In this document: positions 4,457 through 55,609 of the stretch, piece by piece
How the letters are laid out: each line of letters starts with the position of its first letter
Numbering within the stretch: the first letter of the stretch is position 1
Source: Bacillus sp. ISL-37
GTDB lineage: Bacteria > Bacillota > Bacilli > Bacillales > Cytobacillaceae
DNA length: 64,000 nt
Reading direction: 5' to 3'
Assembly: GCF_018613315.1 (NCBI RefSeq)
Contig: NZ_JAGGQL010000008.1
Span: forward strand, 62,001 to 126,000
Program-made: the position numbers and the translations under genes
Notes under the pieces: generated by a model
Databases searched by the model: none
The model's input: only the letters and a program-made list of their open reading frames with translations
Told to the model about the DNA's origin: nothing

Positions 4457-4716
4457 TTTCCCGTTTTTGATCTCACCTTGTTATTTTCAGGCAATGCATT
4501 CGCTCTCCTTTTACCCTTTTTGATTCTTCTCCTCATTTTGGGGTAATGCAGTGGCTTTCCTTTTACCCTTTTTGATTCTTCTCATCATTTTAGGGTAATG
4601 CAACGGCTTTCCTTTTACCCTTTTTGATTCTTCTCCTCATTTTGGGGTAATGCAACGGCTTTCCTTTTACCCTTTTTGATTCTTCTCCTCATTTTGGGGT
4701 AATGCAGCGGCTTTCT
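4457..4716. repeat. 52-bp direct tandem repeat, five copies
   Basis: Four nearly identical 52-bp units start at 4509, 4561, 4613 and 4665 with TTTTACCCTTTTTGATTC. A degenerate copy precedes them (4457-4508) and a decayed fragment follows to about 4766. Units differ at only a few positions. Each unit contains TTACCC and GGGGTAA, so it could form a weak stem-loop. The array fills the space between two convergent genes (4358-4878) and has no credible coding potential. Confidence 0.9.
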
Positions 4717-4794
4717 TTTTTACCGTTATTAATGCCCCTTCGATTCTTCGGGCAATACAGCTAGGGCCAAATTCAATGAATAGCGGCAAGAAAT

Positions 4795-46195: not shown

Positions 46196-46612
46196 GCAGG
46201 AATTATACCCTTATGAAGCACGCTCCACTCACATAAGGGTATCTTTAAACCAGAAAGATGTCCTTAAGAAGCACGCTCCACTCACATAAGGGTATCTTTA
46301 AACCAGAAGATGTCCTTAAGAAGCACGCTCCACTCACATAAGGGTACCTTTAGGCCAGAAAGATGCCCTTATAAAGCACGCTCCACTCATATAAGGGTAC
46401 CTTTAGACCAGAAAGATGCCCTTATGAAGCACGCTCCACTCATATAAGGGTACCTTTAGACCAGAAAGATGCCCTTATGAAGATCAATCCACTCACATAA
46501 GGGTACCTTTAGGCCAGAAAGATGCCCTTATGAAGCACGCTCCACTCATAAAAGGGTACCTTTAGACCAGAAAGATGCCCTTATGAAGCACGCTCCACTC
46601 ATATATGGATAT
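46196..46612. repeat. 53-bp direct tandem repeat, eight copies
   Basis: CGCTCCACTC anchors recur at 46221, 46274, 46326, 46379, 46432, (variant 46485), 46538 and 46591, period 53 (once 52). The unit contains ATAAGGGTACCTTT ... AAAGATGCCCTTAT, which can fold into a hairpin. The array fills most of the gap between the two minus-strand genes (45803-46667); the remaining 45902-46195 shows no other clear element. Confidence 0.9.
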
Positions 46613-53001: not shown

Positions 53002-53412
53002 CTATAAAGTTCCTAAGGCCTGCTCGGCCTTGCTGATCAGTGTCTTTCCTCGTTCCACAAGTCCTTTGGGGAAAGGAGCGTCCTTGTCCTCAGGTGATTT
53101 AAATTGGTTGAAAGAACCGGACACCGCGCCGATGTTACCATCCTCATCAACACCTGTCTGGAATTGATGATCAAGCAAGAAAGGCGTTCCTATCTGGACA
53201 AATGTGCCATCATCATCCAACGGACCACCAGTCGACTTGAAGGGGATCCGTACATACTGCCGGTCACCATGGTCGTCGTTCATCTTGTAATCGATATATG
53301 CATGGTCATATTCCCACTGACCATTGACATTGAACCCAAGCGGTCCGAGCTTTTGCTTCAATTCACCGACAGTGAGCTCTTTTCCGTCTATATTAGATTG
53401 AATTGGAATCAT
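53002..53412 (-). CDS. YugN-like protein
   Basis: A 136-residue soluble protein with QSNIDGKELTVGELKQKLGP, WEYDHAYIDYKMND and GTPFLLDHQFQTGVDEDGN, which fits the YugN-like family of Bacillus. Function unknown. The start follows AATGAGGT. No partner gene is adjacent. Confidence 0.75.
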   Translation of the reverse strand: MIPIQSNIDGKELTVGELKQKLGPLGFNVNGQWEYDHAYIDYKMNDDHGDRQYVRIPFKSTGGPLDDDGTFVQIGTPFLLDHQFQTGVDEDGNIGAVSGSFNQFKSPEDKDAPFPKGLVERGKTLISKAEQALGTL

Positions 53413-53516
53413 AGTGAAAACCTCATTTCATATTGGAATAGTCTTTTAGGTTTTTCCACCAGAAAAAGGATCTCAAACATGCAGCAGCACACAGGAAAAA
53501 TAATTTCGATTTTCTA

Positions 53517-53642
53517 ATCACTACGAAATGTACGATAAACACTACATTTAACGCTATAATCACTACGAAAAAAGGCACAATCACTACGTTTTAAGCTATA
53601 ATCACTACGAAATCGGTCCTAATCACTACTTTTTACAAAGCT
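53517..53642. repeat. 21-bp phased repeat array, six copies
   Basis: The core ATCACTAC (once AACACTAC) recurs at exactly 21-bp intervals: 53517, 53538, 53559, 53580, 53601 and 53622. CGAAA often follows the core, and CTATA or similar ends several units; the remainder varies. The array lies in the gene-free stretch 53413-53880, upstream of the yugN-like gene. Confidence 0.85.
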
Positions 53643-53737
53643 CTTTTCTCAAACTTTGTTGCTTTTGACAACAAAATAGGATTGAATGACCTATGTTTCT
53701 TCACAAAAAATTAAAGCTTATTATGAGAAAAGAGCTT
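53638..53737. repeat. 100-bp element with 14-bp terminal inverted repeats
   Basis: Ends AAGCTCTTTTCTCA (53638-53651) and TGAGAAAAGAGCTT (53724-53737) are perfect inverted repeats; the interior is AT-rich with TTTGTTG/CAACAAA. A second inverted pair, GTTAAAATC / GATTTTAAC (53776-53801), lies just downstream. Possibly a decayed MITE. Confidence 0.6.
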
Positions 53738-53841
53738 GTACACTAATACCGAACTACAAAATGGCTTTTTATCACGTTAAAATCGGCTTTAGGATTTTAA
53801 CAACAATCTTTACGAAAACAGCCTTTTACAAAAATAGTAAA

Positions 53842-53875
53842 AAAAGTAGAGGCCTTAAATGAGACCTCTACTTTT
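53842..53875 (-). terminator. Terminator of the trehalose operon
   Basis: AAAAGTAGAGG / CCTCTACTTTT, perfect 11-bp stem, 5 bp after the treA stop. Confidence 0.88.
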
Positions 53876-53880
53876 CATTC

Positions 53881-55566
53881 TTATTTGGTTAAATGATAAA
53901 CAACTGATTCATACGGACGCAGGTTAATTCGCGAAATATCCTCACTTGAATCAGCATAATTCGAAAGCAACATTTCAATCTTATAGTCATCAGCATCTAC
54001 CGACTCAGGCAATTCAAACACAGTATCTTTTCCATAAAAATTATTTACGACTAGCAGTTTTTCATCCTGCCCGTTCCTAACATATGCGAATATGTCTTGA
54101 TGTTCTTCAAGGATGAGCTGGTAGTCCCCATAGGTGATGATGTCATACTGTTTTCTCAGTTGAATCAACTTTTTATAGTGATAGAACACTGAATTTTTAT
54201 CAGCAAGCGCATTTTCGACATTCACAGTTTGATAATTTCTGGCAACATCTATCCATGGAGTGCCGCTTGTAAAACCTGCATGTTTCTCGTCTTTCCACTG
54301 GACAGGTGTTCTTGAGTTATCTCTCGACTTACTTTGCAGTATCTTCAGGATTTCCTCTTTGGACATGCCTTCGTCCATTTTGATTTTATAAATATTCAAG
54401 GATTCAACATCTCGGTAATCCTCGATCCTTTCAAAATATGGATTGGTCATGCCGATTTCTTCACCCTGATAAATATAAGGCGTCCCCTGCATCATATGGA
54501 CTGCCGTACCAAGCATTTTCGCCGATTCGCGGTGGAATTGACCATCATTGCCATATCGCGACACAACTCTCGGCTGGTCATGGTTGCACCAGAACAAAGC
54601 GTTCCAACCGCCGCCCTTATGCATTTCAACCTGCCATAAAGATAAAATCCGTTTAAGGGCAAGAAAATCAAAATCCACAAGAGTCCATTTGTCACCATTT
54701 TCATAGTCGACCTTTAAATGATGAAAGTTAAATGTCATGCTCAGTTCGTTTCGATCCGGATTTGAGTATTTGATGCAGTTTTCGATAGTCGTGGAAGACA
54801 TCTCGCCGACCGTCATGCTGTCATATTTGGAAAGAACCTCAGAATTCATTTCCTGCAAATACTCGTGTACTTTTGGTCCATCGGTGTAGAATTTCCGGCC
54901 ATCGCCCGGTGGTACAGAACCATCATCATCTGGAAAATCCTGATCCTTTGAAATCAGGTTGATTACATCAAGCCTGAAGCCATCTATACCTTTCTTGAAC
55001 CAATAATGCATCATCTCGTATACATCATTTCGGAGCTCTTCGTTTTCCCAATTCAGATCAGCCTGGGTGACATCGAACAAATGAAGGTAATATTGACCTG
55101 TAGCCTCATCGTACTCCCAGGCATTCCCGCCGAATTTTGATTCCCAATTGGTGGGTGCACTACCGTCTTCCCTCGGGTCTTTCCAAATATAATAGTTTCG
55201 GTAACGGCTATCCTTTGATTTCAGGGCATCCTGGAACCACTCATGCTCAATTGATGAGTGGTTCACGACCAAATCCATGATAATTTTGATTTCGCGCGAA
55301 TGTGCTTCCTCAAGCAGACGGTCGAAGTCTTCCATCGTCCCGTATTCTTTATATATTTGATAATAATCTCTGATATCGTAGCCATTATCCCGCTGAGGTG
55401 AATCATAGACCGGCGTCAGCCAAATTATGTCCACTCCCAGCTCTTTCAAATAATCAAGCTTGGCGATAATCCCCTGCAGGTCGCCTGTTCCATTGCCAGT
55501 TGTATCATAAAAACTCTTTGGATAGATTTGATAGACAACGGACTTTTTCCACCATGGTTCAGTCAT
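53881..55566 (-). CDS. treA: Trehalose-6-phosphate hydrolase
   Basis: A 561-residue GH13 enzyme, the same length as B. subtilis TreA. Catalytic regions: DLVVNHSSIEHEWF, GFRLDVINLI (nucleophile Asp), VGEMSSTTIE (acid/base Glu) and WCNHDQPRVV. It splits trehalose-6-phosphate into glucose and glucose-6-phosphate. The start at 55566 follows GGAGGTG. Second gene of the operon, 43 bp after treP. Confidence 0.93.
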   Translation of the reverse strand: MTEPWWKKSVVYQIYPKSFYDTTGNGTGDLQGIIAKLDYLKELGVDIIWLTPVYDSPQRDNGYDIRDYYQIYKEYGTMEDFDRLLEEAHSREIKIIMDLVVNHSSIEHEWFQDALKSKDSRYRNYYIWKDPREDGSAPTNWESKFGGNAWEYDEATGQYYLHLFDVTQADLNWENEELRNDVYEMMHYWFKKGIDGFRLDVINLISKDQDFPDDDGSVPPGDGRKFYTDGPKVHEYLQEMNSEVLSKYDSMTVGEMSSTTIENCIKYSNPDRNELSMTFNFHHLKVDYENGDKWTLVDFDFLALKRILSLWQVEMHKGGGWNALFWCNHDQPRVVSRYGNDGQFHRESAKMLGTAVHMMQGTPYIYQGEEIGMTNPYFERIEDYRDVESLNIYKIKMDEGMSKEEILKILQSKSRDNSRTPVQWKDEKHAGFTSGTPWIDVARNYQTVNVENALADKNSVFYHYKKLIQLRKQYDIITYGDYQLILEEHQDIFAYVRNGQDEKLLVVNNFYGKDTVFELPESVDADDYKIEMLLSNYADSSEDISRINLRPYESVVYHLTK

Positions 55567-55609
55567 AATAAAACATCCACCTCCATCAGGATTCACTCTC
55601 TAGTTGCGA

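Follow-up and report, generated by a model that had tools for sequence, protein, structure and literature searches.

Phased 21-bp intergenic arrays in Bacillus sp. ISL-37 and its relatives as candidate sites for a protein assembled on one face of the DNA

An intergenic array of six 21-bp units in Bacillus sp. ISL-37 belongs to a group of similar arrays dispersed through this genome and its genus. The best explanation, to which we assign a probability of roughly 40%, is that these are sites where a sequence-specific protein assembles cooperatively on one face of the DNA, likeliest in the service of local nucleoid architecture or insulation. The arrays are phased, consist of a fixed core followed by an A/T tract, most often contain six units, carry an end module in part of the cases, are dispersed and are inherited by position; the protein, its cooperativity and its role are what we infer.

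The array in the window, its dispersal and the anatomy of its units

The window, i.e. the whole stretch of 64,000 nucleotides that was analysed, contains six AATCACTAC cores starting at positions 53517, 53538, 53559, 53580, 53601 and 53622. The original prediction had described six cores at an invariant 21-bp step; all five steps are indeed exactly 21 bp, but only five cores are exact copies of ATCACTAC and the second one (53538) is a near copy, AACACTAC, with one mismatch. The extent first given for the core was also too short, since the conserved block comprises AATCACTACG plus the A/T tract after it. The array spans positions 53516 to 53637 and is composed of five 21-bp units and a terminal unit, all on the forward strand. 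Unit 1 (53516 to 53536) combines AATCACTACG with an A-tract and filler, unit 2 (53537 to 53557) has the degenerate core AAACACTAC, unit 3 (53558 to 53578) is followed by unit 4 (53579 to 53599) of the T-tract type and by unit 5 (53600 to 53620), and the terminal unit (53621 to 53637) consists of the core AATCACTAC and then the left arm TTTTTACA, an ending that recurs in this form or as a close variant in other arrays. Exact ATCACTAC was found seven times in the window, five times inside and twice outside the array, compared to 1.02 occurrences expected from shuffles. The naive probability of the phased set given one core is about 1e-22 if bases are assumed to be independent, and a chance origin of this set is excluded.

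The array lies between a YugN-like gene (53002 to 53412, reverse strand, PF08868), whose 5' side points toward it, and an alpha-amylase family gene (53881 to 55596, reverse strand, PF00128), which we take to be oligo-1,6-glucosidase-like and whose 3' end faces the array with an intrinsic terminator at 53841 to 53876 (reverse strand). It is non-coding, all six reading frames being interrupted by a stop. A coding heptad repeat was rejected: although the NHY frame is open in some arrays, it contains a stop in the window array, and steps of 19, 20 and 22 bp occur.

The suggested genome-wide search for 21-bp arrays, carried out with a two-unit pattern allowing up to two mismatches, showed that the window array is not unique. 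Eight intergenic arrays are present in the 4.74-Mb genome, on contigs C26 (three), C44 (two), C54, C55 and C62, and the few other matches were isolated pairs. The pattern matched in 14 of the 21 genomes of the genus and in 22 of 193 genomes of the family, including these 14; of the eight extra family-level genomes, two among the matches listed contained simple or unrelated repeats. The control, the same pattern read backwards, also gave matches in the genome and genus searches; these presumably stem from the arrays already counted, as most of the core is retained when the pattern is reversed. When genome contigs were scanned, 29 stretches were obtained. Of these, 26 were records of the Mesobacillus or Bacillus type or held arrays of the same kind (two under the title Chryseobacterium sp. 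ISL-80 and one under Cytobacillus), and three came from distant groups and had other repeats. These off-clade matches, in Bacteroides (L028), Desulfamplus (L037) and Myxococcales (L041), as well as three from the family search (L118, L119 and L126) were dropped as having other repeat units. A phage origin was likewise rejected, there being no array match in phages. In one related genome (G003), five of eight AATCACTAC arrays fall within 172 kb of the 4.70-Mb chromosome (P 4e-4 for a cluster picked post hoc).

Unit anatomy was derived from 39 sequence-distinct arrays with 188 unique units, a sample that includes orthologues, so that the arrays are not independent. Positions 1-10 read AATCACTACG, where individual bases are 86-99% fixed; A/T prevails at positions 11-14, positions 15-19 are nearly free and positions 20-21 lean to AT. 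Spacing elsewhere is on the whole regular, with 225 of 234 chained steps being 21 bp, six 20 bp, two 19 bp and one 22 bp; the chain search took steps of 18-24 bp only, and larger gaps of 28, 31, 41 and 42 exist. Six units were present in 23 of the 39 arrays (range 4 to 15), and the ending of the arrays is CTACTTTTT(A/C)CA, in short TTTTT(A/C)CA, or closely resembles it.

Four A/T bases occupied positions 11-14 in 155 of the 188 units, and a TpA step occurred in 19 of these 155 tracts versus 79 expected from column shuffles; for comparison, 54% of 8050 non-coding WWWW words after G contain TpA. The common tract forms AAAT, AAAA, TTTT and ATTT suit a narrow-groove feature of the duplex, and the occurrence of both A- and T-tracts fits a reading of double-stranded DNA. 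A cooperative protein or a curved segment had originally been proposed. The step of two helical turns and the TpA-poor tract after the cores speak in favor of this proposal, the latter lending some support to a bent or narrow-grooved site, but no binding protein for the arrays was found in the computational analysis. Curvature alone, with phased A/T tracts bending the DNA and no specific protein needed, agrees with tracts that are TpA-poor and recur every 21 bp, i.e. in phase with the helix at one per two turns. We regard it as improbable, because it leaves the fixed 10-bp core of mixed sequence and the cap described below unexplained, one tract per two turns would bend DNA weakly, and a second family of arrays with the core TAATTGCAC lacks an A/T tract of this type.

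The array could also be transcribed and act as a small RNA or RNA sponge. A small RNA is, next to a nucleoid protein, one of two ideas put forward for Bacillus tandem repeats in the part of Subirana and Messeguer (2021, PMC8161180) considered here, which refers to transcribed 52-nt repeats in B. coagulans. For the 21-bp arrays this is highly improbable. A and T tracts both serve, and on either strand the folding of the window array, and of most of the array in the orthologue from ISL-55 (L038), was not better than that of shuffled sequences (z -0.18 to 1.35). There was no Rfam match at the curated threshold in window positions 53300-54000, where two sub-threshold matches (a microRNA and an Enterococcus sRNA), far below curated scores, lie over the MITE/terminator region outside the array. 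A single promoter-like match was obtained, fewer than in shuffles (mean 2.1).

Inheritance by position, copying and decay

Comparison of array rows related by descent (eight groups, 35 pairs, 167 unit pairs) revealed differences between orthologous arrays of 6% in the core, 15% in the A/T tract and 36% at positions 15-19. Different loci differ by 7% in the core, 51% in the tract and 73% in filler 15-19, the core figures being biased upward in conservation since all arrays except those at the yugN locus were collected by their core. Cores are thus nearly fixed across loci with unrelated fillers, in agreement with the variable bases between cores described originally.

The yugN locus was reached by its protein and not by the core. 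A match was found in 21 of 21 genomes, with a close orthologue in 19 and only a 47% paralogue in the other two (G016 and G017). As the cross-strain comparison showed, the array is inherited by position: 13 of the 19 species have five or more units at this locus (at most two core mismatches), and 11 of these 13 have six. Remnants consist of four degenerate units in G004, three in G005 and G020 and two in G011 and G015, while no units were found at the locus of G012. ATCTCTAC-like cores are present in G002, G004, G006, G007, G009 and G013. The array of G010 (L143) is mixed, with ATCTCTAC-like units at the far end and ATCACTAC-type units beside the cap, so that a factor, if any, would tolerate A or T there. 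The eight ATCACTAC species differ by 13% in the core, 20% in the tract and 51% in filler 15-21 (28 pairs) and three ATCTCTAC species by 5%, 13% and 15%, respectively, rates that leave out species with decayed arrays as well as G002 and G009; in the pair G008/G001, core and filler changed about equally (4/40 vs 4/28). These data indicate that the array is old in the genus and that, wherever it persists, the core is maintained, but also that arrays are lost, and decay in several species argues that no single site is essential.

Copying is visible as well. Duplications of 42 bp were detected in four arrays (L083, L025, L022 and L081; plain in L083 and L081), and two loci of one genome, L022 and L023, have about 150 aligned bases in common, fillers included. 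The original statement that the array is not a simple slipped repeat was therefore too strong, as slippage or unequal exchange does shape arrays. With both copying and decay apparent, the main and serious rival is a self-amplifying or neutral satellite that drifts, its units multiplying by slippage or unequal exchange and spreading by short duplications, in which case the helical step would reflect the mechanics of copying rather than the function of a site. We consider such a satellite possible but unlikely. Plain copying would carry the fillers along, yet between loci fillers differ far more than cores (73% versus 7%, see above), and among the eight ATCACTAC species at yugN the filler changes about fourfold as often per site as the core. 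Moreover, arrays repeatedly show six units and the end module, and the step and the cap are both found again in a second family whose core is different.

In the window copy, the terminal unit is parted from its right arm by a MITE-like insertion of about 184 bp (53640 to 53823), an element with at least 41 matches in the genome. It is bordered by a 9-bp target duplication, TTTTACAAA, with the left copy at 53631 to 53639 and the right copy at 53824 to 53832 (both forward strand), and the displaced right arm GTAAAAAAA (53837 to 53845, forward strand) is an imperfect match to the cap TG(G/T)AAAA and runs into the downstream gene's terminator. The insertion is absent in the ISL-55 orthologue L038, where the end module is uninterrupted. 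The sole match in a plasmid search (Priestia filamentosa) covers the MITE and not the array; the MITE is 72% similar to a stretch without annotated features on P. filamentosa plasmid CP136440.

The arrays themselves might represent the end of a mobile element, the direct repeats being binding sites of the transposase type and TTTTT(A/C)CA the terminus. They do end in CA, many have an inverted TG 5-7 bases beyond, and they are dispersed between loci. Nevertheless, such an origin is about as improbable as curvature alone. No partner array in inverse orientation (at least three cores, at most one mismatch) was found in the 64-kb window or in the listed 3-8-kb loci, relatives have arrays at orthologous places, the block shared by L022 and L023 runs past the dyad instead of up to it, and the genome contains no transposase of the Y1 family, the one covered by the transposase search. 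Decayed and absent arrays were seen in relatives, with no clean junction defined.

The end module, a second core family and possible roles

Part of the arrays carry the end module TTTTT(A/C)CA-N5/6-TG(G/T)AAAA. The cap, TG(G/T)(A/T)AAA with the A/T optional, was detected in 17 of 37 first-family arrays, i.e. those left after filtering (last core then T) and removal of duplicates. In all 17 it starts 13 or 14 bases after the last core, within a search window of 11-17 bases, and control windows gave a mean of 0.4 and a largest value of 3. The second 21-bp family, with the unrelated core TAATTGCAC, matched in 16 of the 21 genomes of the genus and its control in none. Among 25 TAATTGCAC arrays, taken from among the matches listed plus five further loci, 12 have the cap, nine of them at 14 bases (control mean 0.05, largest 1). 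By the same pattern the cap is missing in 20 of the 37 first-family and 13 of the 25 TAATTGCAC arrays. The latter mostly consist of five or six units (nine arrays each) and in 12 of 25 cases carry TGG(A/T)AAA at most 70 bases ahead of the array (control 0.9, largest 5). In nine of these 12 it sits 30 bases before the first unit, while this upstream motif is not enriched in the first family (3/37; control mean 1.3, largest 3). Dyad covariation in the first-family end module is weak: left-arm ACA pairs with TGT and CCA with TGG in 17 of 23 rows that are not independent (p 0.03). At L180:10649-11104, a single intergenic gap holds a TAATTGCAC array of 21-bp units next to a 52-bp array. Further 20-21-bp families were noted with the cores AATACCAGTTG (L159:13867-13966), CAACCG (L160:5499-5596), GTCGAATAA (L179:6440-6511) and TTTATTGGCGA (L191:16150-16222).

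Under the reading of a protein assembled on one face, each 21-bp unit would provide a 10-bp core and a short A/T tract with a narrow minor groove, at a distance of two turns from the following unit. An array could accommodate about six protomers, and the end module might stop or nucleate the run. The likeliest role would be in local nucleoid architecture or in insulating transcription units from each other, because the neighbours examined are unrelated housekeeping genes. The scanned neighbours include YugN, an alpha-amylase family protein, S8, S41 and M42 peptidases, SufB, glutamine synthetase and others, and no shared regulator was present among the ten flanking genes scanned (of about fifteen at eight arrays). 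This also makes an operator controlling the flanking genes the least credible of the alternatives, and a regulon was rejected on this ground. The window array does lie upstream of yugN and that in L080 upstream of an S8 peptidase gene, but the ten scanned neighbours are unrelated, and 20-21-bp arrays occupy co-directional, convergent and divergent gaps in 8, 3 and 1 of 12 cases, about as gap length predicts; these orientations come from simple ORF calls, some rows being rough and the window being scored convergent though both named genes run alike.

A wider and rather doubtful version would be a bacterial chromatin code, in which related proteins, one per core family (AATC(A/T)CTAC, TAATTGCAC and others), form filaments of about six protomers with a common TG(G/T)AAAA cap, perhaps via one partner that starts or stops the filament. 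The fixed core, the preferred six and an end module held in common with an unrelated core offer a concrete bait for tests. If a protein is found, a sequence-specific architectural factor would be added to the Bacillaceae; otherwise, an explanation would be needed for why a neutral satellite has a helical step.

Comparison with known repeat systems

Iteron arrays of plasmid origins are direct repeats of about 19-22 bp on one helix face. The arrays described here are direct repeats of similar length on one face as well, but unlike iterons they occur at many chromosomal loci, and there was no initiator gene among the ten neighbours scanned. At Tn7-like ends, TnsB-type sites are direct sites about 22 bp apart near a TG/CA end. 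This arrangement resembles the arrays, which differ in having no second end in the loci checked and no transposase among the ten neighbours and in being inherited vertically by place. REP/BIME and REPIN elements are dispersed intergenic repeats, and so are the arrays, but the 21-bp unit is not palindromic; the 52-bp arrays in the window are more similar to these elements than the 21-bp arrays are. A REP/RAYT system was rejected, as the genome has no match to PF01797 (Y1 transposase), which matched in 5 of 14 control genomes.

Fixed lags are not confined to the window array. A scan of 864 kb of this genome for nine-base cores recurring at least four times with a constant lag found non-coding arrays almost only at lag 21 (11 arrays) and lag 52 (21, plus two at 53), with other lags single and lags 42 and 104 being multiples; the scanned contigs were chosen for known arrays, so that the number of AATCACTAC arrays among them is not representative. 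The lag-52 units carry inverted repeats. Among eight other genomes sampled for 35-80 kb each, both lags were present in G003, of the same genus, and in G091, of another genus and with other cores. G023, G029 and G049 had other lags only, and no lag arrays were found in the 35-80 kb sampled each from G021, G032 and G165. The main source of other lags is L187:941-2337 (lags 18, 27, 36 and 45), where most repeats were scored as coding and have a collagen-like appearance. The published Bacillus tandem repeats are mainly of two lengths, equal to two and five helical turns.

The lag pattern of the scan is that reported by Subirana and Messeguer (2021, PMC8161180), who in the portion considered here describe constant-length Bacillus tandem repeats of 20-21 nt and 52 nt, and the class is therefore known. 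B. selenatarsenatis, a species that carries the present arrays, appears in their Table 4 (20-21 nt, 30 repeats; 51-53 nt, 49 repeats), and its repeats are given as common to B. boroniphilus and B. subterraneus. Two 52-53-bp tandem arrays in the window (4483-4721 and 46208-46608) are of the 52-nt class of PMC8161180, their units containing the inverted repeats TTTTACCC..GGGTAATGCA and CCCTTATG..CATAAGGG. The 21-bp arrays consist of at least four non-coding repeats of 20-21 nt with a short signal in all of them, and one genome can contain several families that agree in length but not in sequence. They are accordingly like the repeats of PMC8161180 in length, in being non-coding, in forming several equal-length families per genome and in combining a short conserved signal with a variable rest. 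The anatomy did not turn up in literature searches, and the supplements of PMC8161180, which lie outside this comparison, may list the family. In contrast to that article, whose text as far as considered here contains neither the preferred six nor the end module shared by families, the A/T tracts or the conservation at the same place across a genus, and which stresses that its repeats are species-specific, the arrays described here are kept at one place across the genus. Relative to this portion of the published account, what is new is the anatomy of the arrays, the class itself being already known.
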